From NCBI GenBank assembly GCA_030710605.1, contig CP092874.1, forward strand, positions 19,501,205-19,565,204: a DNA stretch of 64,000 bases, read 5' to 3'. Made by a program: the position numbers and the translations under genes. The notes under the pieces are model-generated. The model was not told where the DNA came from, searched no databases, and worked only from the letters and a program-made list of their open reading frames with translations. This document shows positions 24,495 through 64,000 of this stretch, piece by piece. Numbering within the stretch: position 1 is the first letter of the stretch; every line of letters begins with the position of its first letter. The stretch comes from Cordylochernes scorpioides. Lineage: Eukaryota; Arthropoda; Arachnida; Pseudoscorpiones; Chernetidae.

Positions 24495-27138
24495 AGGCTG
24501 TCACAACCCTCTACCCACCATGGTTATCATGGCCTGGTACTACATGTGTAGACATGTGGTGTACTTACAGTACAAGCTGTCACAACCCTCTACCCACCAT
24601 GTTATCATGGCCTGGTACTACATGTGTAGACATGTGGTGTACTTACAGTACAAGCTGTCCCTCTACCCACCATGTTATCATAGTCTGGTACTACATGTGT
24701 AGACATGTGGTGTACTTACAGTACAAGCTGTCACAACCCTCTACCCACCATGGTTATCATGGCCTGGTACTACATGTGTAGACATGTGGTGTACTTACAG
24801 TACAAGCTGTCACAACCCTCTACCCACCATGTTATCATGGCCTGGTACTACATATGTAGACATGTGGTGTACTTACAGTACAAGCTGTCCCTCTACCCAC
24901 CATGTTATCATAGTCTGGTACTACATGTGTAGACATGTGGTGTACTTACAGTACAAGCTGTCACAACCCTCTACCCACCATGGTTATCATGGCCTGGTAC
25001 TACATGTGTAGACATGTGGTGTACTTACAGTACAAGCTGTCACAACCCTCTACCCACCATGTTATCATGGCCTGGTACTACATGTGTAGACATGTGGTGT
25101 ACTTACAGTACAAGCTGTCACAACCCTCTACCCACCATGGTTATCATGGCCTGGTACTACATATGTAGACATGTGGTGTACTTACAGTACAAGCTGTCAC
25201 AACCCTCTACCCACCATGTTATCATGGCCTGGTACTACATGTGTAGACATGTGGTGTACTTACAGTACAAGCTGTCCCTCTACCCACCATGTTATCATAG
25301 TCTGGTACTACATGTGTAGACATGTGGTGTACTTACAGTACAAGCTGTCACAACCCTCTACCCACCATGGTTATCATGGCCTGGTACTACATGTGTAGAC
25401 ATGTGGTGTACTTACAGTACAAGCTGTCACAACCCTCTACCCACCATGTTATCATGGCCTGGTACTACATGTGTAGACATGTGGTGTACTTACAGTACAA
25501 GCTGTCACAACCCTCTACCTAACATGTTTATCATGGCCTGGTACTACATGTGTAGACATGTGGTGTACTTACAGTACAAGCTGTCACAACCCTCTACCTA
25601 ACATGTTTATCATGGCCTGGTACTACATGTGTAGACATGTGGTGTACTTACAGTACAAGCTGTCACAACCCTCTACCCACCATGTTATCATGGCCTGGTA
25701 CTACATGTGTAGACATGTGGTGTACTTACAGTACAAGCTGTCACAACCCTCTACCCACCATGGTTATCATGGCCTGGTACTACATGTGTAGACATGTGGT
25801 GTACTTACAGTACAAGCTGTCACAACCCTCTACCTAACATGTTTATCATGGCCTGGTACTACATGTGTAGACATGTGGTGTACTTACAGTACAAGCTGTC
25901 ACAACCCTCTACCCACCATGTTATCATGGCCTGGTACTACATGTGTAGACATGTGGTGTACTTACAGTACAAGCTGTCACAGCCCTCTACCCACCATGGT
26001 TATCATGGCCTGGTACTACATGTGTAGACATGTGGTGTACTTACAGTACAAGCTGTCACAACCCTCTACACACCATAATTATCATGGCATGGTACTACAT
26101 GTGTAGACATGTGGTGTACTTACAGTACAAGCTGCCACAACCCTCTATCCACCATGATTATCATGGCCTGGTACTACATGTGTAGACATGTGGTGTACTT
26201 ACAGTACAAGCTGTCACAACCCTCTACCCACCATGTTATCATGGCATGGTACTACATGTGTAGACATGTGGTGTACTTACAGTACAAGCTGTCACAACCC
26301 TCTACCCACCATGATTATCATGTCTTGGTACTACATGTGTAGACATGTGGTGTACTTACAGTACAAGCTGTCACAACCCTCTACCCACCATGATTATCAT
26401 GGCCTGGTACTACATGTGTAGACATGTGGTGTACTTACAGTACAAGCTGTCACAACCCTCTACCCACCATGATTATCATGGCCTGGTACTACATGTGTAG
26501 ACATGTGGTGTACTTACAGTACAAGCTGTCACAACCCTCTACCCACCATGTTATCATGGCATGGTACTACATGTGTAGACATGTGGTGTACTTACAGTAC
26601 AAGCTGTCACAACCCTCTACCCACCATGATTATCATGGCCTGGTACTACATGTGTAGACATGTGGTGTACTTACAGTACAAGCTGCCACAACCCTCTATC
26701 CACCATGATTATCATGGCCTGGTACTACATGTGTAGACATGTGGTGTACTTACAGTACAAGCTGCCACAACCCTCTATCCACCATGATTATCATGGCCTG
26801 GTACTACATGTGTAGACATGTGGTGTACTTACAGTACAAGCTGTCACAACCCTCTACACACCATGATTATCATGGCCTGGTACTACATGTGTAGACATGT
26901 GGTGTACTTACAGTACAAGCTGTCACAACCCTCTACCCACCATGGTTATCATGGCCTGGTACTACATGTGTAGACATGTGGTGTACTTACAGTACAAGCT
27001 GTCACAACCCTCTACCTACCATGATTATCATGGCCTGGTACTACATGTGTAGACATGTGGTGTACTTACAGTACAAGCTGTCACAACCCTCTACCCACCA
27101 TGGTTATCATGGCCTGGTACTACATGTGTAGACATGTG
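24495..27138 (+). repeat. 79-bp satellite array, left part
   Basis: About 33 units of TGTAGACATGTGGTGTACTT, ACAGTACAAGCTGTCACAAC and CCTCTACCCACCATGGTTAT, CATGGCCTGGTACTACA. Length variants of 72, 78 and 79 bp occur, and groups of variants repeat together (the short CTGTCCCTCTACC form recurs near 24650, 24890 and 25270). The unit resembles the 3' tail of the SINE at 22608. Interrupted at 27139 by a retrotransposon. Confidence 0.97.
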
Positions 27139-27160
27139 ACAATTGACAATTAAAACATAC

Positions 27161-27166
27161 TTTATT
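27161..27166 (-). promoter_or_regulatory. Polyadenylation signal of the ORF1 element
   Basis: AATAAA on the minus strand, 33 bases downstream of the ORF1 stop and about 22 bases before the element's 3' end. The relative at 63.78 kb has the same signal at the same distance. Confidence 0.7.
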
Positions 27167-27198
27167 GACACTCGTCAATAGTTACATTCAATCAAGAA

Positions 27199-29277
27199 TT
27201 AATGGGATTTACAGATTAGGGGGGGGGGGAGCATTTCGCTGAGTATGCGCAGGCCCTCACGCACAAAGGGATCCGAGCTCCGAGCGCGCTCAGATGCAGC
27301 GCTGACGATCCCGGCAAGAGTGGTTCTCTTCTGAGTGGAGAGGCGCCTGAGGAGAGGTTCCCTATCGTCGGGGAAAATAATTGCCTCTACGATGTCACCC
27401 TCAGTGACTCCGATATCGGATAAAGTCTCCAAGTAGCGCTCATCGCTTAATTCATAAATTATGTCATTTGCCTGGTCGTAGCAGGCATCAATGAACTCGG
27501 TAGACAGTGGAGGTGGAGGTGTCGCGATGTCCGGCGACGTCTTTTCCCCGTGGAGAGCGGGTGGTGTTGGCTTAGCAGGCCAAGGCGCAGGCAGTGTGGG
27601 TGTTGGAGGCACTGCTGGTGTTGTCCTGAGCTCGGCCTTGACTTGTCCGAGGACCTTATATAAATTAGAGGTGTGTCCGGGCTTCAGGTCCAGAATTTGA
27701 CCGATCAGGCCGACGAGGGCGTCGCACTGCGGAGGCGACAGGAGGGGTCCCTTCCTCTGCGCCTTGGTCCTCGAGGAGAGGAGGTCCAGGACCTCCTCCC
27801 GCCCAAGACCAAGGGCGTCCGTCTTAGCGAATGACACGCTGGGGAGCCCCTCGATGAAAGCATCGAGGTCGACTCTCGTAGCGTTTTTTGCCGATGACGT
27901 GGAGGACGCAAAGGTCTCCTCCACGATGGACATCTCCACGTCCGGAGTTGGGGCCGCAGGCTCGCGACTCCCAGGTGTTTGCAGGGACGGAGCAGGGGTC
28001 ACTGGTGGAGGGGCAGGAGGCGTCTCCTCCATAGGAAAGGCTGGGGCCGCTGGTGGAGATGGCCGAGGTGCGGATGAGTGGAGCGCAGCTCGGGCCACGG
28101 GAGGAGCGCTGCAAACCTCCATGGCTGGATTGGAGGGTGTCGGCGCAGGAGGCTGGGCTGCTGACCGCTGAGGCGGTGCAGGGGTGGTCGGTGGTGGGAC
28201 GCCAGCAGGAGTGGTCGGTGGGGCCGTTCTGGTGTTGTTGGCCAGCCCTGCAAGCAGGGGGCAGATGGCCCTCCGATGCCCTTGTCCGTGGCACCTGGAA
28301 CATCTGATGCCCGAGGACAGGTACGCAGGCCAGGCTTGGCCTTTGATGTTGATGTCAAGGCGGGTTGGAAGCCTCTCGATGGTGATCCCCTCATGTAGGG
28401 TGATGAAGACGTCACGCCGGCCATCGACGTAGACGTAGGGGCCCGCCTTCATCTGCTTAGGGGCGATGGACGTAACCCGCCCATATGGAGAGAGGGCGGT
28501 GATGACAGCAGAGTCCGCCACAAAGAAGGGGAGGTTACCCACTGTAATCCTTTCCGCTCTTTTGCGGAAAGGGAATGCTCTGAGGAGTGTTCCCTCAACC
28601 TCGAGGCCCTCACTTATGAGGCGCTCGGCCAGGCCTCTGTTGGTCAGTCCCAGGAGCTGGTGGCCGTTCACCTTGGTGATCTGGATGACTCCGGCAGTTC
28701 CTCCGAGCATCCTGTCCAGTGCCCTAAGGTAGTGGAAGGGCTCCAGTTCGGGGCTGTGTTCGATGTACACACAGTGTTCCTCGGAGGAGGACGCCTGCCG
28801 CGCCCTGGCTTCCGCGATGTGTGTTCTGGTGACCCTGATCTCTTGGGCCCGCGGCACCGAACCCGCCGATGGTTGAGGTCGGCGAATGGTCCTAGAGCCT
28901 CCGGGATTGGAGGATGGTGCAGCCGCCGTAGGCGAGTTTGCCGAGCCACGGCGCCTCTTCCTACCCTGGACGAGGGTAAATCCTTCCTCAGCTCCAGGAT
29001 TCACCTCTTCTGTGATGTCAGCCCAGTTTCTCCGGACTTGAGCAGCGGCGTCAGAAGTTGGAATAGCCGCAAGGTCGACCGGCGCGGCAGAATTTGCATC
29101 CTGGCTGCCGGCGGAGGGATTTACATAGTTTTGATTTTTAGTCAAAGCTATTGGATTTTTGTTCTGCAAAACATCTTTTGCTGTTATTTCCGCACTGGGC
29201 TGTGCTTTAGAGCCGAGCCTTACAGGCTTGTCTTCGGCTTTTGACGGGCTTTCAGCCCGTGCCAAATTCGTCGCCAT
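27199..29277 (-). CDS. Retrotransposon ORF1 (Gag-like) protein, 692 aa
   Basis: Nucleic-acid-binding ORF1 protein that would package the element RNA. From the N terminus: a polar region ending in the basic stretch GFTLVQGRKRRRG (about 100-112); a fold around 170-235; an RRM-like segment at 243-314 (RITVGNLPFFVADSAVITAL); a CCHC zinc knuckle CSRCHGQGHRRAIC at 326-339; a long proline-rich linker; and a C-terminal domain ending near SERARSSDPFVREGLRILSE. The frame opens upstream to 29385, but its first residues (MTACTVSTPHVYT) are translated satellite. I therefore place the start at the ATG 29277, inside the element. The closest neighbour is the partial relative at 63856. The clade is uncertain because no reverse transcriptase is present. 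Confidence 0.85.
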   Translation of the reverse strand: MATNLARAESPSKAEDKPVRLGSKAQPSAEITAKDVLQNKNPIALTKNQNYVNPSAGSQDANSAAPVDLAAIPTSDAAAQVRRNWADITEEVNPGAEEGFTLVQGRKRRRGSANSPTAAAPSSNPGGSRTIRRPQPSAGSVPRAQEIRVTRTHIAEARARQASSSEEHCVYIEHSPELEPFHYLRALDRMLGGTAGVIQITKVNGHQLLGLTNRGLAERLISEGLEVEGTLLRAFPFRKRAERITVGNLPFFVADSAVITALSPYGRVTSIAPKQMKAGPYVYVDGRRDVFITLHEGITIERLPTRLDINIKGQAWPAYLSSGIRCSRCHGQGHRRAICPLLAGLANNTRTAPPTTPAGVPPPTTPAPPQRSAAQPPAPTPSNPAMEVCSAPPVARAALHSSAPRPSPPAAPAFPMEETPPAPPPVTPAPSLQTPGSREPAAPTPDVEMSIVEETFASSTSSAKNATRVDLDAFIEGLPSVSFAKTDALGLGREEVLDLLSSRTKAQRKGPLLSPPQCDALVGLIGQILDLKPGHTSNLYKVLGQVKAELRTTPAVPPTPTLPAPWPAKPTPPALHGEKTSPDIATPPPPLSTEFIDACYDQANDIIYELSDERYLETLSDIGVTEGDIVEAIIFPDDREPLLRRLSTQKRTTLAGIVSAASERARSSDPFVREGLRILSEMLPPPLICKSH

Positions 29278-29347
29278 CCGCGACGTTATTCCGCTCGCCA
29301 GAGGCGAAAAACTCGGGAGCTCGCGCGACGCGTGGCCGCACGGCCGA

Positions 29348-29825
29348 GTGTAGACATGTGGTGTACTTACAGTACAAGCTGTCACAACCCTCTACCCACC
29401 ATGGTTATCATGGCCTGGTACTACATGTGTAGACATGTGGTGTACTTACAGTACAAGCTGTCACAACCCTCTACACACCATGATTATCATGTCTTGGTAC
29501 TACATGTGTAGACATGTGGTGTACTTACAGTACAAGCTGTCACAACCCTCTACACACCATGATTATCATGTCTTGGTACTACATGTGTAGACATGTGGTG
29601 TACTTACAGTACAAGCTGCCACAACCCTCTACACACCATGATTATCATGGCCTGGTACTACATGTGTAGACATGTGGTGTACTTACAGTACAAGCTGTCA
29701 CAACCCTCTATCCACCATGATTATCATGGCCTGGTACTACATGTGTAGACATGTGGTGTACTTACAGTACAAGCTGCCACAACCCTCTATCCACCATGAT
29801 TATCATGGTCTTTTACTACATATTT
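29348..29825 (+). repeat. 79-bp satellite array, right part
   Basis: About six more units, continuing in phase after the retrotransposon. Units here mostly carry ACACACCATGATTATCATG. The array ends at CATGGTCTTTTACTACATAT. Confidence 0.95.
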
Positions 29826-30350: not shown

Positions 30351-30382
30351 ACTTGTAATATGATACACTAGCGCGCCATCTG

Positions 30383-31382: not shown

Positions 31383-31577
31383 TTAAGAGCTCATTATGGA
31401 CGTAACAACGGCTCTGTAGCCATGGCAGAGATCTCCTACGTCATCCAGGGACATGACGTTGGTCTCCTGCAGAAAGCAGATGTCGATCTCATACTCCTTG
31501 AGAAAACAGCAGAGCTGAATTCTCCGGCGAAGAGCGGCGATGCCGCGCGTGTTCAGGGTCGCAATTCGGAAAGCCAT
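31383..31577 (-). pseudogene. LINE ORF2 N-terminal endonuclease fragment
   Basis: MAFRIATLNTRGIAA followed by LKEYEIDICFLQETNV is the start of an APE-type endonuclease domain: the N in LNTRG and the E in LQET are its first metal-binding residues. The frame then runs 18 residues and ends at a stop, with the rest of the endonuclease and all of the reverse transcriptase missing. No target duplication found. It could belong to the same family as the ORF1 element at 27139, since both lie on the minus strand and are GC-rich, but nothing proves this. Confidence 0.75.
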
Positions 31578-32056
31578 CACCGTTGGGGCAGGAGCGCGCA
31601 CCTGTGCATCTTCGCTGATCGAGAGAGAGAGAGGCCATTGTAGATAAATAGTTTTGTGTAGAAATTTCTGTGTATATTTTCTACGCTAATTTGGACGATA
31701 GACGTTTTAACTATTAAGTTAAATTTTTCAATATTTTGACGAGAATAATAGTGATTCCCGAAAATTTGATCCATTTTTAGAATTTATAGAACTGTGCTCT
31801 TTTGAGCTTTAATGGTTTTATTTCATTTCATTTGTAATTGAATCTGTGTTTAAACAGACAACCTGTTATAGAAGATGGACGTTCCGAATTTCCTAAAACT
31901 GATGTTGCGGCTTTATCTAATGACTCTCAATTAGAGTGAGATTTAATATAAACATGATGCATTAGTGCGCCATCTGTTATCATAAATTTAAACTATTTAT
32001 GACGACGTTTATGTTTCTTTTATAATAAAACAATTTCAACTGCCCTTACTTTAACG

Positions 32057-34400: not shown

Positions 34401-34419
34401 GTTGTTAAAATCCGTCTTT

Positions 34420-35337: not shown

Positions 35338-35820
35338 TAAATTGCTCCAATGGACCCCGATTCCTGCAAAAGTCCAAATCCGCTAGTGAATACAAGTAAC
35401 CAAACGGGGATCTCTGCGTGAGGATACTGCGTGAAAGGCAAACTTGTATTCCGTCATTAAAAGCTAAGCACTACCAACCAACAGGTGTCTATTAATCCAT
35501 GTTAGGGTCAGCATACAAAATGTCTGTTCCCTATGTTATAAATGACTTCATCTGAAGCTACGATTCTTTGTTCAGATTCTTTGAAACAACGGCAGACGTT
35601 TTTTACCCATAATTTTACTCATCATCCATAAAGTTCATCTTTCTGAAGTTGCCTAATTTCCTGGAACTGTAGGATAAAGAAATACACGTATTACACTTGT
35701 AAATAAAATATTCGGATTGTTTCCCCACATGTGTGGACATGTGGTATGTTTACAGTAAAAGCAGTCGCTAATTACTATCTACCATGATTATCATGGCCTC
35801 TGTACTACGTGTACTAGAGA
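35338..35820 (+). mobile_element. SINE body and tail split by an insertion
   Basis: 35345-35425 and 35695-35812 are the two halves of the SINE body and tail seen at 14110. The 35426-35690 insert is an inverted copy of the 16682-16860 / 38905-39080 repeat (GCATACAAAATGTCTGTTCC, ACTTCATCTGAAGCTACG). Confidence 0.75.
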
Positions 35821-41368: not shown

Positions 41369-41650
41369 AGTTTTTATAGGGGAAGAATGACCTCTGGCGG
41401 TCGATTTATCAGAATATTTGAATCTATGAAATTATAATTTAAAATAAAAGGATATTTTTATATAACATATATATATATATATATATAGATGGAAAATTTG
41501 CCGGGAGGAAATTAATCCATGGAAGCAATGGACGCCTCTCCCTTTTTATAGGGGAAGAATGACCTCTGGCGGTCGATTTATCAGAATATTTGAATCTATG
41601 AAATTATAATTTAAAATAAAAGGATATTTTTATATAACATATATATACAG
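41369..41650. repeat. About 105-bp direct repeat flanking an FB2 end
   Basis: TTTTTATAGGGGAAGAATGA ... ATTTTTATATAACATATATA occurs at 41372-41478 and again at 41541-41648. Between them is an FB2 terminus (ATAGATGGAAAATTTGCCGG). Confidence 0.75.
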
Positions 41651-42948
41651 GGTGTACCAGGTAAATTGGGACTAACTTTGACAGTCCATAAAACAAAAAC
41701 TACTTGATATTAAAAACTTGTTTTTTTTTCATTACGTAGCCATATTCATGTAAAATGCAACAGTACATGTGTGCGCAGTGTAGTGATGAACAGTAACCGA
41801 GAATTTGAAAATCGAGCTGCCATCATCGTTGCTCTGCGCGCCGGAAGGAGCCCCAAAGAGATAGTGGATTTTCTTAAGTTGCCCAAAACCACTATTTATC
41901 GTGTCAAGAAGCAGTTTGATGAGGCCGACAGTAACAAAGAGGGGATAGCTACAAGGAAAAAGCACTCGCGTCGATCGGACAGGGTAAGAGGCGAAGAATT
42001 TGTCAAAAATGTCAAGGAGAAGATTGATGGAAACCCTGGGAAGAGCATGAGGGCCATAGCCAAGGAAATGGACGTTGGCTCTATGACAATTGTCAGAACT
42101 ATCCATGAGGACCTTGGTCTCAAGTCTTATGCCCTTCGGAAAGGTCAGTTACTGACTGAGAATATGAAGAATAACAGAAAAGGAAAGGCTGCTGCCCTCC
42201 TCAACAACCTGAAACACGACTCTTTTGGCATGCTAAGGTTCTTCTCTGACGAAAAGAACTTTGACGTGGACCAAAAGGTAAATTCCAGGAATGATCGCTG
42301 GATCTGTAAAGACCCCTCAGAGATACCTGTCGTGATGCACACGAAATTTCCTGCCTCCGTAATGGTCCTTGGCGTTATCAGCAGTGAAGGTGATGTCATG
42401 CCTCCCCATTTCTTTGAGAAGGGCCTTAGGATGACGCTGACACCTACATCAATGTTCTGGAGACCGTTGTGAAGCCTTGGATGGACATGGTGGCCGCAGG
42501 AAGAAAGTATGTCTTCCAACAGGACTCAGCTCCAGCCCATAAGGCAAAAAAGACACAATCGTGGCTGACACTTAACGTCCCTAGTCACTGGGGTCCTGAT
42601 ATTTGGCCCCCTAATTCTCCAGATTGCAATCCCCTCGACTACTATGTATGGGGCGTTGTTGAGAGAGATGTCAACAAAGCTCCTCATACCACCATCCAGT
42701 CTGTCAAGAAAGCAGTTCACACGGTGATGACCCAAATGGACAAGGTCATCGTCGTCAAGGCCTGTGCTTCATTCCGCACTCGCCTCGAGACTGTTGTAGC
42801 TAATAATGGAAACTTCATTTAATAAATAAAACTATATCCTTTTATCTACTACTGTGTCAAATTTCATTCGGATATTTTAATTTTTACTTGCAAAAAATTT
42901 CAGTTAAAATACCATTGTTGAAATTCCCAATTAACCTGGTACACCCTG
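41648..42948 (+). mobile_element. maT-type mariner element, copy 1 (frameshifted)
   Basis: 1301 bp, inverted ends starting CAGGGTGTACCAGGTAAATT and ending with the near-perfect complement (TTAACCTGGTACACCCTG), flanked by TA. It is nearly identical to the copy at 47399-48702, which is on the opposite strand, so both are young. Confidence 0.93.
41786..42822 (+). pseudogene. maT-type mariner transposase with one frameshift
   Basis: Same protein as the intact copy, with DNA-binding N-terminus (ALRAGRSPKEIVDFLKLPKT) and the first catalytic D in RFFSDEKNFD. One A is missing near 42432-42434 (GGATGACGCTG against GGATGAACGCTG), which shifts the frame before the second catalytic D. The first frame stops at 42472; the second part (VFQQDSAPAHKAKKTQ, NPLDYYVWGV) continues in another frame to 42822. 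Inactive as it stands. Confidence 0.92.
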
Positions 42949-42954
42949 TATATA

Positions 42955-43300
42955 TATATAGATGGAAAATTTACCGGGAGGAAATTAATCCATGGAAGCA
43001 ATGGACGCCTCTCCCGTCAAAATAAACGTCAGAATCTGACGCCATCTATTGACCGTCGTCGCAACTAGCGGCATCGGGTCGGTGACAAAGCCACAACACC
43101 AACTTTGGCAAACTGATAAGCGTCCACATAGAGACCATGGTTTCGGGCTAATGGCCCTCGTCAGTCTAGGGCGGACTTTATTCCATGAGATCCACACGGG
43201 ATCTAATGGAATCCTCACAATCTACCAAATCGACCATAGATGGCGTCAGATTCTGACGTTTATTTTGACGGGAGAGGCGACCATTGCTTCCATAGATATA
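42955..43300. mobile_element. FB2 foldback element
   Basis: Left arm ACCGGGAGGAAATTAATCCA, GCCTCTCCCGTCAAAATAAA, CGTCAGAATCTGACGCCATC; right arm the complement at 43238-43297. Centre with GATAAGCGTCCACATAGAGA and ATGGCCCTCGTCAGTCTAG. Only the TA duplication separates it from the mariner. Confidence 0.8.
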
Positions 43301-45360: not shown

Positions 45361-45500
45361 TTAATCAGAACCCAACTCTCCCTTCCCTATAGTTGTATAA
45401 GGTATTCTCTCTCCTTCATTTAATCCTGTCCACACTCAAGGCGACTTGTGGCACCTGATCCCGAAGTCCCTTCAGAGAAGTCAGTTGTAAATATTTTATA

Positions 45501-45833
45501 CTAGTCGAATGACCCGGGCAACGCCCGGGGTTTACCCGATTAAATGCTTTTATTCAAATACTATTCGTTACAATTATAAATTGGCGCCGTAGATGTCACT
45601 CTTGTGAAACGTCCCGCCCCAAACCATCGGCCGGGAATCGAACCCGGGGCGCCCGCGTGGCAGGCGATCATTCTACCACTGAACCAAAGGCAAACGGTGA
45701 CAGAAGTGTCTCGCGCATTGGCGGCACCAAATGATGGGGGGGGGGGGGGCAAAGGTGGCGTGATCGTAGCCGACCAATAGGAGGGCGCCGGCAAACCGTG
45801 ACAGAGGCCATGACGCTCGTAACTGTATATAGA
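45501..45833 (-). mobile_element. Short Helitron carrying tRNA-Gly sequence
   Basis: Minus-strand start A|TCTATATACAGTTACGAGCG; end with a CCCGGGCGTTGCCCGGG hairpin, TCATTCGA, CTAG|T. 333 bp; same ends and shared segments as 12496-12878, but with a tRNA-Gly-like sequence in the middle, bordered by a repeated CTGTCACGGTTTGCC / CTGTCACCGTTTGCC motif. Confidence 0.85.
45623..45691 (-). pseudogene. tRNA-Gly (GCC)-like sequence
   Basis: TTGGTTCAGTGGTAGAAT, the anticodon arm with CTGCCAC (GCC), and CCCGGGTTCGATTCCCGG match eukaryotic tRNA-Gly. The acceptor strands (GCCTTTGG, CCGATGG) do not pair and two bases before the D arm are missing, so it is a pseudogene. Both internal promoter boxes are intact. 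Confidence 0.85.
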
Positions 45834-45854
45834 TTTTTTTATTACAATACTGTA

Positions 45855-46497
45855 ACTAGAATGAGGCAATTATCCTGTGCTACAGGTGCGCCCATCGGTT
45901 TTATAAAACAATTAAGCAATTTACTTAATAATAACGGATCCTCGTGGCTTACTTATTGTAATGATCCTGACTCACTAAGGAATGCTATCCCTGGAATATT
46001 AAGAACTGCGATAGAGCAAACAATACAAAACGACCTAACAAGAATAACCCAATCAAAGTTATATTCCCACTATAGAGACATATATACAACCTTTACCACC
46101 GAAGAATACTTCTTAATTGAACTCCCTTTTCCTATCATCAGATTAATTGCACAATTTAGAACCCTTTCAATTTTTTTCAGAGAACACCATTTGATTTTAT
46201 TGAGGCGTGAAGACCTGAAATGCACTTTCTGTGGATCAGGAATAACAACGGAGATGTTGCATTACATATTTGACTGTGCTGCTCTGTCTGAGGAAAGACG
46301 AAAACTAAATGATAAAACGGGGCAACTTTGTCCTTCATTTCCGGCACTGATTAATGAAATATCAAAGAATAGGTATATAGCGATGGCGATATTTGGATTC
46401 CACAAGACTATATCCCGGAAAAAGGCCACACAGTGTTCTCCCCATCCCTTGTGAACTGGCGAATCCTGTATAGGGCGAGTGGCCCTAAATAAAGGCT
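45855..46497 (+). mobile_element. 5'-truncated LINE with 14-bp target-site duplication
   Basis: Exact direct repeat ATTACAATACTGTA at 45841-45854 and 46498-46511. It ends CCCTAAATAAAGGCT without a long A tail. It carries only the end of ORF2. Confidence 0.9.
45858..46454 (+). pseudogene. LINE ORF2 C-terminal fragment, about 199 residues
   Basis: Open from MRQLSCATGAPIGF to the stop at 46454. It contains FRTLSIFFREHHLILLRR, then CTFCGSGITTEMLHYIFDC, the zinc-binding tail of jockey/I-like LINE ORF2. Residues before the element start are host sequence. There are no stops in about 200 codons, so the insertion is fairly young. Reverse transcriptase and endonuclease are absent. Confidence 0.8.
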
Positions 46498-46511
46498 ATT
46501 ACAATACTGTA

Positions 46512-46937
46512 TTTTAATTTTTCTCTAAATTTATTTTTTTGCTATTGACTAGGAGTCAATAAAGTTGTTAATTGTAAATTCTCTCCTTCATTTTAAGGTT
46601 TTAAAATTATATTTTAAGTAAATAGTTTTGTTTCAATATGTTAAAATTTTACTTTTTTAAATGATACGTTTAATCTTTCGTTGTGTGAATTCAATTAATT
46701 AATTCCAAAGAGAGAACGCTTCACACACACACACAATATAGACAGACAGACATGACAGAACAAACATGGTTATTCCCGGTCTCTCGTGGAAGGGGTCTCT
46801 TATTGGAAGCTATGTTTGATTCAAGTTCATCAAACTTTTTTAAAACGTTTATTTTCCTTTGAGGTTTCAGTGACTCAATACCGCCCTTTAAAAAAGGTGT
46901 AAAGCTTATTAGAGTGAAATATTGTCTTTTGTCCTTA

Positions 46938-47103: not shown

Positions 47104-47398
47104 TAATATATGCTCTTACAGGAATAATAAAGTAAATCTGCAGTCGACCAGAGAGAGAGAGAGACGTAGTCGATAGAAGACAACTAACTTACGACCATTT
47201 TGACCACATTCCAAAGGGGGGGGGGGGGAAGGGACCCGCCCGTGAACACCTGGAGTAGTCGGGGGGTGACCACACAAGCAGTCATTCAGGGATAACCTCT
47301 CGCTCGCTCTCTCTCGGCTGGCTGCCTGGGATTGCTCTACCAACTCGTCGTGTGATTATTTCTCACCACATTATTACCACTAAATTGTCACATATATA
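46512..47398. repeat. Spacer with TA microsatellites
   Basis: 46943-46985 and 47066-47102 are TA dinucleotide runs. 47150-47330 is GC-richer with a G run at 47217-47228. No gene seen. Confidence 0.7.
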
Positions 47399-48702
47399 CA
47401 GGGTGTACCAGGTAAATTGGGAATTTCAACAATAGTATTTTAACTGAAATTTTTTGCAAGTAAAAATTAAAATATCCGAATGAAATTTGACATAGTAGTA
47501 GCTAAAAGGATATAGTTTTTATTTATTCAATGTAGTTTCCATTATTAGCTACAACAGTCTCGAGGCGAGTGCGGAATGAAGCACAGGCCTTGGCGACGAT
47601 GACCTTGTCCATTTGGGTCATCACCGTGTGAACTGCTTTCTTGACAGACTGGATGGTGGTATGAGGAGCTTTGTTGACATCTCTCTCAACAACGCCCCAT
47701 ACATAGTAGTCGAGGGGATTGCAATCTGGAGAATTAGGGGGCCAAATATCAGGACCCCAGTGACTAGGGACGTTAAGTGTCAGCCACGATTGTGTCTTTT
47801 TTGCCTTATGGGCTGGAGCTGAGTCCTGTTGGAAGACATACTTCCTTCCTGCGGCCACCATGTCCATCCAAGGCTTCACAACGGTCTCCAGAACATTGAT
47901 GTAGGTGTCAGCGTTCATCCTAAGGCCCTTCTCAAAGAAATGGGGAGGCATGACATCACCTTCACTGCTGATAACGCCAAGGACCATTACGGAGGCAGGA
48001 AATTTCGTGTGCATCACGACAGGTATCTCTGAGGGGTCTTTACAGATCCAGCGATCATTCCTGGGATTTACCTTTTGGTCCACGTCAAAGTTCTTTTCGT
48101 CAGAGAAGAACCTTAGCATGCCAAAAGAGTCGTGTTTCAGGTTGTTGAGGAGGGCAGCAGCCTTTCCTTTTCTGTTATTCTTCATATTCTCAGTCAGCAA
48201 CTGACCTTTCCGAAGGGCATAAGACTTGAGACCAAGGTCCTCATGGATAGTTCTGACAATTGTCATAGAGCCAACGTCCATTTCCTTGGCTATGGCCCTC
48301 ATGCTCTTCCCAGGGTTTCCATCAATCTTCTCCTTGACATTTTTGACAAATTCTTCGCCTCTTACCCTGTCCGATCGACGCGAGTGCTTTTTCCTTGTAG
48401 CTATCCCCTCTTTGTTACTGTCGGCCTCATCAAACTGCTTCTTGACACGATAAATAGTGGTTTTGGGCAACTTAAGAAAATCCACTATCTCTTTGGGGCT
48501 CCTTCCGGCGCGCAGAGCAACGATGATGGCAGCTCGATTTTCAAATTCTCGGTTACTCTTCATCACTACACTGCGCACACATGTACTGTTGCATTTTACA
48601 TGAATATGGCTACGTAATGAAAAAAAAAACAAGTTTTTAATCTCAAGTAGTTTTTGTTTTATGGACTGTCAAAGTTAGTCCCAATTTACCTGGTACACCC
48701 TG
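47399..48702 (-). mobile_element. maT-type mariner element, copy 2 (intact)
   Basis: 1304 bp with inverted ends CAGGGTGTACCAGGTAAATT and flanking TA. One full-length transposase frame on the minus strand. Confidence 0.96.
47523..48563 (-). CDS. maT-type mariner transposase, 346 aa, apparently intact
   Basis: Transposase for its own inverted ends. N-terminal helix-turn-helix (residues 8-45, ALRAGRSPKEIVDFLKLPKT) and a second at about 85-125 (KSMRAIAKEMDVGSMTIVRT). Catalytic triad D155 (RFFSDEKNFD), D247 (VFQQDSAPAH), D285 (CNPLDYYVWG); the last gap of 37 residues gives DD37D, the maT class. I chose the ATG at 48563 (MKSNREFENR) because it gives the usual length and lies well inside the element. 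An upstream in-frame start at 48632 would add 23 residues. The close copy at 41648 differs by few bases. Similar transposases are known from many arthropods, including sea lice, which is the weak basis for my guess about the organism. Confidence 0.95.
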   Translation of the reverse strand: MKSNREFENRAAIIVALRAGRSPKEIVDFLKLPKTTIYRVKKQFDEADSNKEGIATRKKHSRRSDRVRGEEFVKNVKEKIDGNPGKSMRAIAKEMDVGSMTIVRTIHEDLGLKSYALRKGQLLTENMKNNRKGKAAALLNNLKHDSFGMLRFFSDEKNFDVDQKVNPRNDRWICKDPSEIPVVMHTKFPASVMVLGVISSEGDVMPPHFFEKGLRMNADTYINVLETVVKPWMDMVAAGRKYVFQQDSAPAHKAKKTQSWLTLNVPSHWGPDIWPPNSPDCNPLDYYVWGVVERDVNKAPHTTIQSVKKAVHTVMTQMDKVIVAKACASFRTRLETVVANNGNYIE

Positions 48703-48719
48703 TATATATATTTGAAAAT

Positions 48720-54344: not shown

Positions 54345-55074
54345 TTTGAAAATAGAGCAATCCATAAATAAATCTGTAATTAAAAAGGCATATGTTGGAT
54401 CAAAATATCATTTATTTTACCAATATTTCAGTTGACTGAACGCCTGAAAACTATTTATATTTTGATTTTTTTTTTTCGATTCATAGATATCCAGCGTGAC
54501 CAAGTAGTCATTTATCTTTGTGACCCTATATAACAAGAGAAAAATATTTTTTTTATATAAAAGTCGCTCCAGATTTTTTACTTGGTCGTGAAATTCCCAT
54601 TTACCATCAGACGATGCCGCTAATGGCGCCATTTTTTACCTTGTTGCCGGAGGCGATTTAGTTTGTTCGTCTGCAAACGTTCTATCGAGTTATTAAAAAC
54701 TTTTTTATACAATGACCCCTCCTCCTCTTCCTCTTTTATTAGGTTAATATCTAATAGGGCCATTTATCAACTTATTTTTGTTAATTTAAAATACAGACGA
54801 ATGTTTTAATATGATGAAAATTCATTTTTAACGTATATCTCGTTTATATTTTAATTAAAAAATGACCATTATCTATATATTAATCGATACATTTTTAGGC
54901 TGCTGTGTGCTTAATGTTATTTTATAAAATTAAGAATATGTGAACCATGCTTAGGCTGTTTAAATTATTTGTTATCTGATGACTAAGGAGGAAAAATTGG
55001 GAGAGTCCAGAGGACAACTTGACAACGAACTGCCGAGAAAGGCATCATCAGAAAATAGCAGAACGGCAAAGAAT
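54345..55074. other. Left flank of the large 59-bp array
   Basis: 54345-54440 is a type B Penelope-like end. 54445-54620 corresponds to the gap at 18200. 54620-55074 matches 18300-18723. The ATGGCGCCATT stretch at 54620 begins a minus-strand frame MAPLAASSDGKWEFHDQV that runs 71 codons; it might be a first exon, but nothing supports it further. Confidence 0.4.
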
Positions 55075-58000
55075 AGAAGAATGGAGGAACTACTGTCGAC
55101 AATAGACCTGATGTTAGCAGAACACCAAAGAAAAATGGAGGAACTACTGTCGACAATAGACCTGATGTTAGCAGAACACCAAAGAAGAGAAGAATGGAGG
55201 AACTACTGTCGACAATGGACCTGATATTAGCAGATCACCAAAGAAGAGAAGAATGGAGGAACTACTGTCGACAATGGACCTGATGTTAGCAGAACACCAA
55301 AGAAGAGAAGATTGAAGGAACTACTGTTGACAATGGACCTGATGTTAGCAGAACACAAAAGAAGAGAAGAATAGAGGAACTACTGTCGACAATGGATCTG
55401 ATGTTAGCAGATCACCAAAGAAGAGAAGAATGGAGGAACTACTGTCGACAATGGACCTGATGTTAGCAGAACACCAAAGAAGAGAAGAATGGAGGAACTA
55501 CTGTCGACAATGGACCTGATGTTAGCAGAACACCAAAGAAGAGAAGAATGGAGGAACTACTGTCGACAATGGACCTAATGTTAGCAGAACACCAAGAAGA
55601 GAAGAATGGAGGAACTACTGTCGACAATGGACCTAATGTTAGCAGAACACCAAAGAAGAGAAGAATGGAGGAACTACTGTCGACAATGGACCTAATGTTA
55701 GCAGAACACCAAGAAGAGAAGAATGGAGGAACTACTGTCGACAATGGACCTGATGTTAGCAGAACACCAAAGAAGAGAAGAATGGAGGAACTGCTGTCGA
55801 CAATGGACCTGATGTTAGCAGAACACCAAAGAAGAGAAGAATGGAGGAACTACTGTCGACAATGGACCTGGTGTTAGCAGAACACCAAAGAAGAGAAGAA
55901 TGGAGGAACTACTGTCGACAATGGACCTGATGTTAGCAGAACACCAAAGAAGAGAAGAATGGAGGAACTACTGTCGACAATGGACCTGATGTTAGCAGAA
56001 CACCAAAGAAGAGAAGAATGGAGGAACTACTGTCGACAATGGACCTGATGTTATCAGAACACCAAAGAAGAGAAGAATGGAGGAACTACTGTCGACAATG
56101 GACCTGATGTTAGCAGAACACCAAAGAAGAGAAGAATGGAGGAACTACTGTCGCCAATGGACCTAATGTTAGCAGAACACCAAGAAGAGAAGAATGGAGG
56201 AACTACTGTCGACAATGGACCTGATGTTAGCAGAACACCAAAGAAGAGAAGAATGGAGGAACTACTGTCGACAATGGACCTAATGTTAGCAGAACACCAA
56301 GAAGAGAAGAATGGAGGAACTACTGTCGACAATGGACCTGATGTTAGCAGAACACCAAAGAAGAGAAGAATGGAGGAACTGCTGTCGACAATGGACCTGA
56401 TGTTAGCAGAACACCAAAGAAGAGAAGAATGGAGGAACTACTGTCGACAATGGACCTGGTGTTAGCAGAACACCAAAGAAGAGAAGAATGGAGGAACTAC
56501 TGTCGACAATGGACCTGATGTTAGCAGAACACCAAAGAAGAGAAGAATGGAGGAACTACTGTCGACAATGGACCTGATGTTAGCAGAACACCAAAGAAGA
56601 GAAGAATGGAGGAACTACTGTCGACAATGGACCTGATGTTATCAGAACACCAAAGAAGAGAAGAATGGAGGAACTACTGTCGACAATGGACCTGATGTTA
56701 GCAGAACACCAAAGAAGAGAAGAATGGAGGAACTACTGTCGCCAATGGACCTGGTGTTAGCAGAACACCAAAGAAGAGAAGAATGGAGGAACTACTGTCG
56801 ACAATGGACCTGGTGTTAGCAGAACACCAAAGAAGAGAAGAATGGAGGAACTACTGTCGACAATGGACCTGATGTTAGCAGAACACCAAAGAAGAGAGGT
56901 ATGGAGGAACTACTGTCGACAATAGACCTGATGTTAGCAGAACACCAAAGAAGAGAAGAATGGAGGAACTACTGTCGACAATGGACCTGATGTTAGCAGA
57001 ACACCAAAGAAGAGAAGAATGGAGGAACTACTGTCGACAATGGACCTGATGTTAGCAGAACACCAAAGAAGAGAGGTATGGAGGAACTACTGTCGACAAT
57101 AGACCTGATGTTAGCAGAACACCAAAGAAGAGAAGAATGGAGGAACTACTGTCGACAATGGACCTGATGTTAGCAGAACACCAAAGAAGAGAAGAATGGA
57201 GGAACTACTGTCGACAATGGACCTGATGTTAGCAGAACACCAAAGAAGAGAGGTATGGAGGAACTACTGTCGACAATAGACCTGATGTTAGCAGAACACC
57301 AAAGAAGAGAAGAATGGAGGAACTACTGTCGACAATGGACCTGATGTTAGCAGAACACCAAAGAAGAGAAGAATGGAGGAACTACTGTCGACAATGGACC
57401 TGATGTTAGCAGAACACCAAAGAAGAGAAGAATGGAGGAACTACTGTCGACAATGGACCTGATGTTAGCAGAACACCAAAGAAGACAAGAATGAAGGAAC
57501 TACTGTCGACAATGGACCTGATGTTAACAGAACACCAAAGAAGAGAAGAATGGAGGAACTGCTGTCGCCAATGGACCTGATGTTAGCAGAACACCAAAGA
57601 AGAGAAGAATGGAGGAACTACTGTCGACAATGGACCTGGTGTTAGCAGAACACCAAAGAAGAGAAGAATGGAGGAACTACTGTGGACAATGGACCTGATG
57701 TTAGCAGAACACCAAAGAAGACAAGAATGGAGGAACTACTGTCGACAATGGACCTGATGTTAGCAGAACACCAAAGAAGAGAAGAATGGAGGAATTACTG
57801 TCGACAATGGACCTGATGTTAGCAGAACACCAAAGAAGAAAAGAATGGAGCAACTACTGTCGACAATAGACCTGATGTTAGCAGAACACAAAGAAGAGAA
57901 GAATGGAGGAACTACTGTGGACAATGGACCTGATGTTAGCAGAACACAAAAGAAGAGAAGAATGGAGGAACTACTGTCGACAATAGACCTGATGTTAGCA

Positions 58001-60285
58001 GAACACAAAGAAGACAAGAATGGAGGAACTACTGTGGACAATGGACCTGATGTTAGCAGAACACCAAAGAAGACAAGAATGGAGGAACTACTGTCGACAA
58101 TGGACCTGATGTTAGCAGAACACCAAAGAAGACAAGAATGGAGGAACTACTGTCGACAATAGACCTGGTGTTAGCAGAACACCAAAGAAGAGAAGAATGG
58201 AGCAACTACCGTCGACAATGGACCTGATGTTAGCAGAACACCAAAGAAGACAAGAATGGAGGAACTACTGTGGACAATGGACCTGATGTTAGCAGAACAC
58301 AAAAGAAGAGAAGAATGGAGGAACTACTGTTGACAATAGACCTGATGTTAGCAGAACACCAAAGAAGACAAGAATGGAGGAACTACTGTGGACAATGGAC
58401 CTGATGTTAGCAGAACACCAAAGAAGACAAGAATGGAGCAACTACCGTCGACAATGGACCTGATGTTAGCAGAACACCAAAGAAGAGAAGAATGGAGGAA
58501 CTACCGTCGACAATGGACCTGATGTTGGCAGAACACAAAAGAAGAGAAGAACAGAGGAACTACTGTCCTCAATGGACCTGATGTTATCAGAACACAAAAG
58601 AAGAGAAGAATAGAGGAACTAATGTCGACATTGGACCTGATGTTAGCAGAACACAAAAGAAGAGAAGAATGGAGGAACTACTGTGGACAATGGACCTGAT
58701 GTTAGCAGGACACCAAAGAAGAGAAGAATGGAGCAACTACCGTCGACAATGGACCTGATGTTAGCAGAACACAAAAGAAGAGAAGAACAGAGGAACTACT
58801 GTCCACAATGGACCTGATGTTATCAGAACACAAAAGAAGAGAAGAATAGAGGAACTAATGTCGACATTGGACCTGATGTTAGCAGAACACCAAAGAAGAC
58901 AAGAATGGAGGAACTACTGTCGACAATGGACCTGATGTTAGCAGAACACAAAAGAAGAGAAGAATAGAGGAACTCCTGTGGACAATGGACCAGATGTTAG
59001 CAGAACACCAAAGAAGAGAAGAACGGAGGAACTACTGTCGACAATGGACCTGATGTTAGCAGAACACCAAATAGGAGAAGAATGGAGGAACTACTGTCGA
59101 CAATGGACCTGATGTTAGCAGAACACAAAGAAGAGAAGAATGGAGCAACTACTGTCGACAATGGACCTGATGTTAGCAGAACACCAAAGAAGACAAGAAT
59201 GGAGGAACTACTGTGGACAATGGACCTGATGTTAGCAGAACACAAAAGAAGAGAAGAATGGAGGAACTACTGTCGACAATAGACCTGATGTTAGCAGAAC
59301 ACCAAAGAAGAGAAGAATGGAGGAACTACTGTCGACAATGGACCTGATGTTAGCAGAACACCAAAGAAGACAAGAATGGAGGAACTACTGTGGACAATGG
59401 ACCTGATGTTAGCAGAACACAAAAGAAGAGAAGAATGGAGGAACTACTGTCGACAATAGACCTGATGTTAGCAGAACACCAAAGAAGACAAGAATGGAGG
59501 AACTACTGTGGACAATGGACCTGATGTTAGCAGAACACAAAAGAAGAGAAGAATGGAGGAACTACTGTCAACAATGGACCTGATATTAGCAGAACACCAA
59601 AGAAGAGAAGAATGGAGTAACTACTGTCGACAATGGACCTAATGTTAGTAGAACACCAAAGAAGAGAAGAACAGAGGAACTACTGTCGACAATGGACCTG
59701 ATGTTAGCAGAACACCAAAGAAGACAAGAATGGAGGAACTACTGTGGACAATGGACCTGATGTTAGCAGAACACCAAAGAAGACAAGAATGGAGGAACTA
59801 CTGTCGACAATGGACCTGATGTTAGCAGAACACCAAAGAAGAGAAGAATGGAGGAATTACTGTCGACAATGGACCTGATGTTAGCAGAACACCAAAGAAG
59901 AGAAGAATGGAGCAACTACTGTCGACAATAGACCTGATGTTAGCAGAACACAAAGAAGAGAAGAATGGAGGAACTACTGTGGACAATGGACCTGATGTTA
60001 GCAGAACACAAAAGAAGAGAAGAATGGAGGAACTACTGTCGACAATAGACCTGATGTTAGCAGAACACAAAGAAGAGAAGAATGGAGGAACTACTGTGGA
60101 CAATGGACCTGATGTTAGCAGAACACCAAAGAAGACAAGAATGGAGGAACTACTGTCGACAATGGACCTGATGTTAGCAGAACACCAAAGAAGACAAGAA
60201 TGGAGGAACTACTGTCGACAATAGACCTGGTGTTAGCAGAACACCAAAGAAGAGAAGAATGGAGGAAACACTGTCGACAATGGAC
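55075..60285 (+). repeat. 59-bp satellite array, about 88 copies
   Basis: Same unit as 18724-20127, grown to about 5.2 kb. Higher-order structure is visible. A GAGGTATGGAGG variant recurs every 177 bp (three units) at 56896, 57073 and 57250. Two 330-bp segments at 55548 and 56136 repeat at an offset of 588 bp. Segments at 57845 and 59907 repeat 2062 bp apart. A GACAAGAATGG / CTGTGGACAA subtype dominates from 57.7 kb on. Open frames of about 105 codons are by-products. Confidence 0.97.
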
Positions 60286-60289
60286 CTGA

Positions 60290-60510
60290 AATTACACTCA
60301 TAGAGACAAAACTTAAGAAGGTTGTACCTTTTAGCATGTATATCGAGGTTCAGACAATATCTCTAAAAGATATTAAAGTGGCCTTTATTAAAAACACACG
60401 AGATAACCAAGTGGGAACAGATTTAACTCTGTATCCTTCAAAAAAAAAAAGATACCGGCGACATCAAAAACCTTCTATTTCCTTAAGTTTTGTCCATGAG
60501 TTTAGCAGAA
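60290..60510 (+). mobile_element. Tc1/mariner-type MITE ending the array, second copy
   Basis: Same insertion in the last 59-bp unit as at 20129-20345 (CACTCATAGAGACAAAACTT ... CTTAAGTTTTGTCCATGAG). The shared position shows that the MITE arrived before the duplication. Confidence 0.78.
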
Positions 60511-61339: not shown

Positions 61340-61735
61340 TCTTTCTCAATTTAATATGGTGCATCTGTTATAATAAATGGAAATTATTTTAGACGTCTAT
61401 GTTTCTTTTTAAAATAAAACAATTTTCTACTGCCCTTACACACACACAAAAACCTTTATTAAGACACACAGGTCTTACAGAGGATTCTCCTTAGGGTTAC
61501 AAGACGGAGAAACCTATGAAAGTGGGAAATATTACTGTCCTTACTGCATTGATAAAAATAAATGGGAGGGCCTGGCTCATCTGTGTTGAATTAAAATTGT
61601 GAAACCGCTGGAAGGGTTCTCCACTGATGAGCCAGGCCCTCCCATTATTTTATCAAAGCAGTAATGGCAGTAGAAAATTGTTTTATTTCGAAAAAAAACA
61701 TAGGCGTCTTAAATAGTTTCAATTTATTGTTTTAG
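61340..61735. mobile_element. FB1 foldback with a retroposon inserted
   Basis: FB1 arms (ATGGTGCATCTGTTATAATA; TAGGCGTCTTAAATAGTTTC) and centre CACTGATGAGCCAGGCCCTC. The left arm is interrupted at 61435-61530 by the TG-tailed piece also seen at 49118. Confidence 0.65.
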
Positions 61736-62142
61736 TAACTACCTTGTGATTTCTTCTATCTGCTTATGTTGTTGCTTATTTGTTTAATGGACATGTTCAT
61801 TTAATGTTCTTTTTCTTAATTGTTTATTTTCTGTTTGATAATTCTGTTACCTACTCTACTACAATTATTGTAAATAGTTTCACGCGCAATTATCCAGATC
61901 GGATATAGCGTGTCTTGTTTGCAACTGGTAATAAATAAAATTTTAGTTTAAAGTAAAAAAATATATAATCATTTTTATGTGGAAATTTGTTTTTGTGTTT
62001 TTTTTTCTTCAAATATATACGTAAAGACACTCATGAACTACACTTAAAGGACTTGTACTTTTTATAAGCGATCAGTATATGCCTCTTTTGTTTTTATATA
62101 TATATTCTGGAATTTAAAAATAAATTTTAATTAATATTTATT
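61736..62142. other. AT-rich spacer
   Basis: No gene or clear repeat border. The last 100 bases match 23250-23345. Confidence 0.4.
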
Positions 62143-62153
62143 CCGATAGATGG

Positions 62154-62452
62154 ATTATCACTGGTACAAACCATTGAAACAATTAGAAGAACTTCAAAAA
62201 CTCATTAGAAATCAACAAACAGCTTTAGCAAGACTAAGAAGTGGCCATATAAAAACCTTAAAATTTCAAAATGGACAAAAAAACCTTCAATAACTGATTG
62301 AAATACAATAGTGTGGAAGCTTCTCCGGAACATATCATGCTCAGAACTAACAATAAAGGACCTATTTTCCAGGCCTATAACTACCATCGCAAAATTGGAG
62401 AGGAGTGGACTTCAGGAATTGGTTTAACCATGGAGATAAGCATCTGACACCA
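62154..62452 (+). mobile_element. Truncated LINE fragment with 11-bp target duplication
   Basis: CCGATAGATGG stands at 62143-62153 and 62453-62463. Translation gives QQTALARLRSGHIKTL, then, in another frame, VEASPEHIM. This is the RNase H-to-zinc-tail region known from arthropod jockey-like elements. At least one frameshift; nothing else of the element remains. Confidence 0.75.
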
Positions 62453-62642
62453 CCGATAGATGGCACAAACCATCAATAACATTAATTTCTCTCGATCAGG
62501 AAATGCTCCTTTCTTAATTTTTCCATCTGATATTTGGTACTTTCTTCCATTTGTTCAAGTTTTCCAATAGATGGAACGATTTGTGTTTACGTTGTTTACA
62601 AAAAAACACTCGTATATCATTGTGGCAAAGATACAAATAGAT

Positions 62643-62892
62643 TAGTAAATTAAATTTAATTGCCATCTATCGTTAAAATTTTACACAAATAAATTTACTG
62701 GCAATGCGTTTCTTTTAAATATCATCAAATATTATCTCTACAGACCTTACTGCAATGATATGAGTTATTGAATGAGAGGGCTTGGCTTATTCAATAACTC
62801 ATATCATTGCGCAGTAAGGTATGTAGAGATAATATTTGATGATATTTAAAAGAAACGCATTGCCAGTAAATTTATTTGTGTAAAAAGAAAAT
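62643..62892. mobile_element. Nearly perfect foldback element with 11-bp target duplication
   Basis: Arms of about 100 bp (AAATTTACTGGCAATGCGTT ... TCATCAAATATTATCTCTAC) pair almost perfectly around GAGAGGGCTTGGC. TACAAATAGAT flanks it on both sides. The first copy of the locus (22205) lacks it, so it arrived after the duplication. A long foldback with a 9-11 bp duplication suggests a Mutator-type origin. Confidence 0.85.
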
Positions 62893-62903
62893 TACAAATA
62901 GAT

Positions 62904-63459
62904 CATCAGAAAAACACCAGCTGGGATTCTAGGCCTTTTTTTTCAAAGAGGACCAAACACTACGTGTCCTAGTTATGCCTACGTATTTAGGACTTAATGA
63001 GGCACAATGATACCTGATCATTAACACCAGACATCTGATCGGTATGTAAAAAATCGATTCATCTTGTTTTATTGAAGATATTAAATATCATTTGTCGTTG
63101 TTTGATGGTTCCTATGCTCTTTTTTTTTAATATTAGGACTCCTTGTTCTTAATATTACTCTGGGAGAATGTTTTTTATATGAGGCGATGGGACAAAAAAA
63201 GTTTTGATAACATTGTAATGAGGTTGATACCTTTTTAAATGTTTTTATAAAATATGTGTATCTCGGGGCGATGTTTCTATAGAGAATGGTTTACTATACC
63301 TCCATCATGTTAGAGGGTTTTGAGAAGTTTAGTTAGTTTTATGTTCGGTGAATATCTTCCTTCTTTGTTGGTATTTGAACCCGGAGTTGTACCTGTTTAG
63401 TTGACACTTTTTGTATGGAATTATCTCCATGGCCCCAATCTAATTTTTGCATATCCAAC
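62904..63459. other. Second copy of 22225-22600 and of the satellite leader
   Basis: AGCTGGGATTCTAGGCC, then TACCTCCATCATGTTAGAGG without the SINE, then TTGAACCCGGAGTTGTACCT as at 24390. Confidence 0.65.
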
Positions 63460-63756
63460 CCGTGTAGACATGTGGTGCACTTACAGTACAAACTGTCACA
63501 ACCCTCTACCCACCATGATGGCCTGGTACTACATGTGGTGTACTTACAGTACAAGCTGTCACAACCCTCTACCCACCATGATGGCCTGGTACTACATGTG
63601 TAGACATGTGGTGTACTTACAGTACAAGCTGCCACAACCCTCTACCCACCATGATGGCCTGGTACTACATGTGTAGACATGTGGTGTACTTACAGTACAA
63701 GCTGCCACAACCCTCTACCCACCATGATGGCCTGGTGCTACATATGTAGACATGAG
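63460..63756 (+). repeat. 79-bp satellite family, second array
   Basis: About four units, shorter (around 75 bp) because ATTATC is missing in CCACCATGATGGCCTGG; one unit is shorter still. Interrupted at 63757 by a second ORF1-type element. Confidence 0.95.
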
Positions 63757-64000
63757 ACAATTGACAATTAAAAACACATTTATTGACAACTCAGTCAATT
63801 GTTACACTCAAGTCAGTGGGGGGGGGAAAAATTACAATTATTTACAATAGTTTCATCAGCGGCACAACATTGACCTAAAGTCCGACAATTGGTCGAGAGC
63901 AGATTGATCATCGCCTCGAGCACGCTCGATGACAGAGCCCAAGAAGTTCGCAAGTATGCTCCTTTGGTTTGGATGTGCGCCGAGAATATCATTCCGTTCT
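63757..64000 (-). mobile_element. Second ORF1-type retrotransposon at the same satellite position
   Basis: Starts after TGTAGACATGAG with ACAATTGACAATTAAAAACA, the same 3' end as the 27139 element. AATAAA lies at the same distance. Interior DNA is clearly different (poly-G, then unrelated bases), so it is a diverged family member, not a copy made by the duplication. It continues beyond the window. Confidence 0.82.
63856..64000 (-). CDS. ORF1 protein C-terminus, partial
   Basis: 47 residues up to the stop. SILANFLGSVIERARGDDQ, then LSDFRSMLC, aligns with TLAGIVSAASERARSSDP and LRILSEML at the end of the ORF1 at 27199. Both keep ERAR, a following D and the L-x(3-4)-S-x-ML ending. The frame runs off the window, so the rest, including the zinc knuckle, cannot be seen. 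Confidence 0.75.
   Translation of the reverse strand, partial: ERNDILGAHPNQRSILANFLGSVIERARGDDQSALDQLSDFRSMLCR

Follow-up and report, generated by a model that had tools for sequence, protein, structure and literature searches.

HeT-A, a telomeric non-long-terminal-repeat (non-LTR) retrotransposon of Drosophila, encodes a Gag, or open reading frame 1 (ORF1), protein without a reverse transcriptase (RT) and uses the Pol of another element (PMC5537684). The mammalian half-L1 elements, HAL1, are ORF1-only derivatives of long interspersed nuclear elements (LINEs) that are flanked by target duplications and need a full LINE (PMC5322556). LINEs of the R1 clade are site specific, with Mino residing in AC repeats (PMC3124438) and R1 itself generating a 14-bp duplication (PMC2718515), and YURE of Ciona, one of a group of relatives with a restriction-like endonuclease (RLE) and weak specificity, is at times inserted into a U2-derived satellite (PMC4640811). 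Type I ORF1 proteins carry an RNA recognition motif (RRM) before CCHC knuckles, and the tabulated subtypes have three knuckles where a number is given (PMC4120745). We describe two elements, A and B, in a 64,000-nucleotide stretch of the pseudoscorpion Cordylochernes scorpioides (assembly GCA_030710605.1, contig CP092874.1, forward-strand positions 19,501,205 to 19,565,204; hereafter the window, numbered from its first base), each of which encodes only ORF1 and is inserted at the same base of a satellite repeat. Our reading, to which we assign a probability of roughly three in four, is that they represent an ORF1-only family akin to HeT-A and HAL1 that is copied in trans by a LINE with an apurinic/apyrimidinic endonuclease (APE) and has its own strongly preferred target.

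Element A is a full-length, ORF1-only retroelement of 2,209 bp on the minus strand (27139 to 29347), with the 5′ end TCGGCCGTGCGG and the 3′ end TTTTAATTGTCAATTGT. It is embedded in a plus-strand array of a 79-bp satellite, with 34 units on its left (24483 to 27138) and 6 units on its right (29348 to 29821). The 13-bp target duplication, GTGTAGACATGTG, is perfect on the 3′ side (27126 to 27138) and the 5′ side (29348 to 29360), and joining the flanks of A regains an intact satellite unit. A carries one long minus-strand ORF of 692 amino acids (27199 to 29277, stop included) that starts at 29277 and stops at 27199 to 27201, 60 bp short of the 3′ end of the element; there is no ORF2, nor was an RT motif noticed in its vicinity. 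A terminal hairpin, ATTGAC-N4-GTCAAT, lies on the minus strand at 27164 to 27179 and overlaps AATAAA. Poly(A) is absent from the 3′ end of the family, which terminates in AATTGTCAATTGT.

Structure modeling and fold matches indicated, with moderate confidence, that the ORF1 protein of A contains an RRM-like fold followed by one CCHC knuckle. The first RRM-like domain falls within 28537 to 28785 and the single knuckle motif, CSRCHGQGHRRAIC, is at 28261 to 28302, both on the minus strand; a model covering the RRM and knuckle together was of unusable quality (predicted local distance difference test [pLDDT] score, 35), and the first RRM alone was used. A median ratio of nonsynonymous to synonymous substitution rates (dN/dS) of 0.29 over the N-terminal half is indicative of purifying selection on ORF1. 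Searches of viral contigs and plasmids found nothing related. If A were a processed cellular gene for an RNA-binding protein, it could likewise present as an intron-less ORF inside a target duplication, and a Pfam search with ORF1 returned no family above the cutoff, but the absence of poly(A), the constancy of the 5′ and 3′ ends across hundreds of copies, and the homology of ORF1 to a LINE ORF1 (see below) make such an origin extremely improbable.

The 3′ end of element B lies at 63757 to 64000 on the minus strand, and the remainder was read outside the window. The full element (locus L009, 757 to 2980; 63757 to 65980 if window numbering is continued) is 2,224 bp long and also ORF1 only, and its 13-bp target duplication is mismatched at 2 of 13 bases. 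B abuts a second plus-strand satellite array, a 73-bp variant at 63462 to 63756, and its terminal hairpin, ATTGAC-N6-GTCAAT, is at 63782 to 63799 on the minus strand. L009 contains two more full-length copies and part of another, with the satellite site and orientation of B. As stated in a preliminary description of the window, the two elements have the same orientation and begin at the same base of the unit: GACATGTG is followed by ACAATTG at 27138/27139, and GACATGAG is followed by ACAATTG at 63756/63757. Exact copies of the junction 17-mer were confined to these two places in the window, with a third place carrying 3 mismatches. Also borne out was the common 3′ end, as A and B share the tail TTTTAATTGTCAATTGT and the hairpin that overlaps AATAAA; hairpins of the form ATTGAC-N-GTCAAT occurred 3 times in the window versus 0.04 expected.

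The preliminary description considered A and B to be two divergent elements with distantly similar protein ends. When compared in 200-bp blocks, they were 83 to 98% identical over the first 1,800 bp of A, four-fifths of its length, and 56 to 67% identical over the last ~400 bp, such that divergence holds for the latter part only. The distant similarity of the protein ends was upheld: the last 47 amino acids of B aligned with the C terminus of the A ORF1 over 34 amino acids with a score of 42, which was matched in 0 of 2,000 shuffles against the last 80 amino acids of A and in 6 of 2,000 against all of A. Further C-terminal modules were present among other copies of the family. We conclude that, as judged from their sequences, A and B are members of one family and are mosaics with different C-terminal modules.

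Exact patterns were counted genome-wide in the 2.62-Gb assembly of 24 contigs. The 3′ tail occurred 4,623 times (reversed control, 1), and the tail directly abutting this satellite base occurred 167 times (control, 0), with junctions listed on contigs C1 to C4, C6 to C8, and C12, the contig of the window. The tail-plus-site pattern itself selects for the site, and the 24-base 5′ end of A is the fairer measure. That 5′ end was found in 1,105 exact copies, a count outside which variant 5′ ends fall; 805 (73%) were directly preceded by the satellite site, CATGTCTACAC, 156 (14%) by (CA)n, and the other 144 by neither. Because clustered copies may be partly satellite amplified, these counts do not equal independent events. 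Among the first 100 of the 4,623 tails listed, all on contig C1 and with flanks that had G at the last listed base left out, the flank started with CA in 55, CT in 38, CC in 3, and other bases in 4; 14 were in (CA)n of at least 4 units, 4 were at the satellite site, and 32 were followed by CTA. The junction counts support site-specific insertion, as had been proposed. Separately, one tail lies within the satellite 13 bp off the usual site, beside the 5′ end of another element (G000, C1:67660763-67660797, minus strand).

Fifty of the 167 satellite-site junction loci were read, 30 with 1.5 kb of upstream sequence and 20 with 4.5 kb, together with L009. ORF1 sequence was found upstream of the tail at 49 of the 50; the exception was a 5′-truncated LINE with ORF2 (L049). 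In the shorter set ORF1 preceded the tail in 30 of 30, some with broken frames, and the longer set comprised 17 full-length elements, 2 5′-truncated ORF1 copies, and L049. Copies arranged head to tail with the 13-bp target alone between them were found at L021, L025, L026, L063, and L009 (near 9252), indicating that each insertion re-creates the site. Thus, the claim that A possesses ORF1 but no ORF2 extends to nearly all of the junction loci read, and the absence of ORF2, the fixed ends, and the target duplications together suggest that ORF1-only elements are presumably mobilized in trans.

One way in which A and B could share a site is if a single insertion in an ancestral array was carried along when the window duplicated. 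The window halves represent an old duplication (19 collinear blocks, 9,365 bp, mean identity of 88.9%) in which both satellite arrays are paralogous and hold corresponding places, the array beside B matching 24352 to 24786, and the similarity of A and B over the first 1,800 bp is about that of the duplicated flanks or higher. Among the 30 loci with 1.5 kb upstream, however, the closest relative of A was L018 (99.5% over the last 1,514 bp of A) and that of B was L016 (98.8% in a comparison of 244 bp). These two loci lie on C1 and the window on C12; each element is nearer to a C1 copy than to its counterpart, from which it also differs over the last ~400 bp. We conclude that separate insertions, as initially claimed, are supported and that a single ancestral insertion is very unlikely for A and B; for the family as a whole it is refuted by the junctions on other contigs. 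Alternatively, there might be no choice of site, and unequal exchange and amplification might have multiplied satellite units in which an element was already present. Satellite DNA does undergo amplification, head-to-tail copies exist (L021, L025, and L026), and copies cluster at 49 to 68 Mb of C3 and 65 to 70 Mb of C1. Such spread would not readily account for a junction that is common to several C-terminal types, several unit types, and one copy of a short interspersed nuclear element (SINE)-like repeat, nor for (CA)n insertions with the same ends; although some copies may still be amplified, we regard amplification as an improbable general explanation.

The satellite unit aligns to parts of a dispersed repeat at 5633 to 5707, 14228 to 14313, 22819 to 22904, and 35727 to 35812. 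The third of these belongs to a plus-strand SINE-like copy (22600 to 22930) in which a tRNA-type B box was recognized by eye but no tRNA was scored by Rfam. The evidence that the dispersed repeat is a SINE is moderate, and the name given in the preliminary description is kept with caution. Flanks matched the SINE-like copy at 31 of the 50 junctions, and the flank of L031 extended into the body of the repeat (86% over 122 bp). L048, L058, and L062 also appeared by eye to be in SINE-like bodies, of which a check supported L062, and that only further along. Consistent with the earlier proposal, these matches support a target common to the SINE-like repeat and variants of the satellite.

A pair of element ends on C1, one 5′ end and one tail separated by 7.3 kb, led to a full-length LINE of 5,298 bp (L065) that is inserted in (CA)n and preceded by an ORF1-only element also in (CA)n. 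The LINE encodes an ORF1 of 546 amino acids and an ORF2 of 1,157 amino acids, counted from MNYRV, in which Pfam identified an APE endonuclease (PF03372) and an RT (PF00078); PDB sequences matched by ORF2 were mainly those of L1 and R2. The LINE ORF1 is 37% identical to that of A over 554 aligned positions (E = 1e-93), and the LINE resembles A over ~56 bp at each end (80% identity). Its domains and the 13-bp target duplication of the ORF1-only elements provide a lead toward a possible placement in the R1 clade. For the LINE-type 5′ end, a 14-mer from one copy compared with a 24-mer for the ORF1-only type, (CA)n stood before 306 copies and the satellite site before 0. The split of 306/0 versus 156/805 gave a P value of ~2e-176 by Fisher's test with copy relatedness ignored, where the 306 and 805 are classed by type of 5′ end rather than by ORF content. 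The truncated LINE at a satellite site, L049, shares 98.0% identity with the (CA)n LINE (801 bp), which shows, on sequence grounds, that RNA of the LINE family has entered this site on one or more occasions.

These results do not support a satellite-dedicated endonuclease as originally stated. The suggested search for an ORF2 element with these ends yielded a single full-length one, which is in (CA)n; moreover, the 5′ end of A is itself found in (CA)n 156 times, and a truncated LINE of the (CA)n type occupies a satellite site. The ORF1-only elements encode only an RNA-binding, Gag-like protein, with RRM-like regions, one CCHC knuckle, and a variable C-terminal module, and their RNA bears short 5′ and 3′ terminal sequences in common with the full-length LINE. 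We propose instead that the LINE ORF2 would recognize the common 3′ tail and nick the TG-rich site on the plus strand of the window at ATGTG^GTGTAC, reverse transcription would be primed from a TG-ending primer, and a second cut staggered by 13 bp would produce the target duplication. The SINE-like repeat and related satellite arrays would offer the site, where elements would accumulate, sometimes head to tail. Cleavage ahead of GTGTAC, as read from the junction, yields a primer with TGTG at its end, and (CA)n targets yield one of the same kind; one TG-preferring APE enzyme may therefore serve both targets. The identity of the acting ORF2, the mode of tail recognition, and the reason for the preference of the ORF1-only elements for the satellite are inferences; something in these elements, most simply ORF1, may bias them toward it.

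Confidence in this explanation is tempered slightly by the number of junction loci read, 50 of 167, and by the moderate strength of the evidence for the RRM fold and for a SINE identity of the repeat. A satellite-specific endonuclease might instead belong to a separate autonomous LINE that has the same ends and moves the ORF1-only elements, the (CA)n LINE being only a cousin. In favor of this rival, the LINE-type 5′ end was not found at the satellite site, the LINE that was found was not seen at full length in the satellite, and lineages of the R1 clade do differ in target (PMC3124438). When the LINE ORF2 was compared by tblastn with the 51 loci read (the 50 junction loci and L009), however, L049 was the sole match, and that copy is nearly identical to the (CA)n LINE. 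We consider the separate LINE a serious possibility that falls short of even odds as a whole, and for the cutting step it is about as likely as a shared enzyme. Returning to trans copying by the (CA)n-type LINE, a more specific and somewhat doubtful version is that a shared ORF2 serves several RNAs while ORF1 bound in cis sets the landing place, the LINE ORF1 directing insertion to (CA)n and the ORF1 of the ORF1-only elements to the satellite/SINE-like base. If true, Gag would be a swappable targeting module that is under selection and whose C terminus is reshuffled.

The 3′ tail is not unique to A and B, as five of six nonsatellite loci compared share a further 170 to 270 bp before the tail. 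These loci (L001, L003, L004, L005, and L008) form a short SINE-like family, defined by the last 170 to 270 bp before the tail, which is probably a third passenger class of the same machinery. A second LINE with a nearly identical tail is inserted in (TC)n (L078). Within the window, element C (45408 to 46593, plus strand), a LINE-like fragment, lies outside the satellite and carries a 14-bp duplication, TCTCTCCTTCATTT, at 45408 to 45421 and 46580 to 46593. Its terminal hairpin (46544 to 46560, plus strand) is 90 bp past an ORF whose Cys/His end was recognized by eye as ORF2-like, and the shared hairpin made it a candidate for the ORF2 partner. The candidate was rejected, as the ORF2-like end showed no similarity to the LINE ORF2 (blastp E value above 1); no Pfam family was matched by this end, and it weakly matched the nonsatellite loci L005 to L007 (36% over 33 amino acids). 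Also rejected as the partner was an APE-type endonuclease fragment next to A, the N terminus of an ORF2 (31383 to 31580, minus strand). It belongs to an abundant LINE family, of which all 11 copies read terminate in a (TC)-rich tail that lacks TTAATTGT. A first look gave 5,404 candidates for that LINE family, and 24 of 150 scored had open frames of 1,141 or 1,154 codons.

As to the window itself, positions 5716 to 24786 and 33053 to 63754 are collinear, diverged copies spanning tens of kilobases, with large unmatched stretches between blocks. A 59-bp tandem repeat is present in both halves, with 24 copies at 18740 to 20127 and 89 copies at 55056 to 60289. Two transposase-like ORF regions, mariner-like by eye, at 41639 to 42955 and 47392 to 48711 are inverted relative to each other and 98.9% identical; in one the frame stays open over 381 codons, and in the other it is split.

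The extent to which LINE targets are determined by Gag or ORF1 as opposed to the endonuclease is, to our knowledge, not settled. Related ends joined to different ORF1s in two target classes, with hundreds of natural insertions, make the question of an ORF1-set target testable. The family also illustrates a chain in which a dispersed repeat seems to have given rise to a satellite and the satellite became a landing pad. A literature search from which subscription papers were mostly absent found no satellite-targeting ORF1-only family. ORF1-only LINE derivatives, repeat-specific LINEs, and the use of repeat-derived satellites are each known, and it is their combination that was not found in the literature searched.

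The family adds a natural Gag-only element beside HeT-A and HAL1, with a high copy number and many intact frames. HeT-A is similar in lacking RT, relying on another Pol, having a defined landing place, and permitting head-to-tail arrangement, whereas the family described here occupies an internal repeat site, generates a 13-bp target duplication, and has, in A, a 3′ untranslated region of 60 bp. HAL1 is likewise an ORF1-only LINE derivative with target duplications but is poly(A) tailed, whereas the 3′ end here is fixed and not poly(A) and the target is sequence specific. Like the present family, YURE is a non-LTR element found in satellite DNA that originated from a different repeat; unlike YURE, the present family lacks ORF2 and has a strong site preference. 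The ORF1 of A resembles type I ORF1 in having an RRM-like fold and then CCHC but differs in its single knuckle. Finally, the system resembles the R1 clade in its repeat targets, duplications of 13 to 14 bp, and an ORF2 with APE endonuclease and RT, the partner LINE being in (CA)n, and goes beyond that clade in having ORF1-only members and a satellite target.
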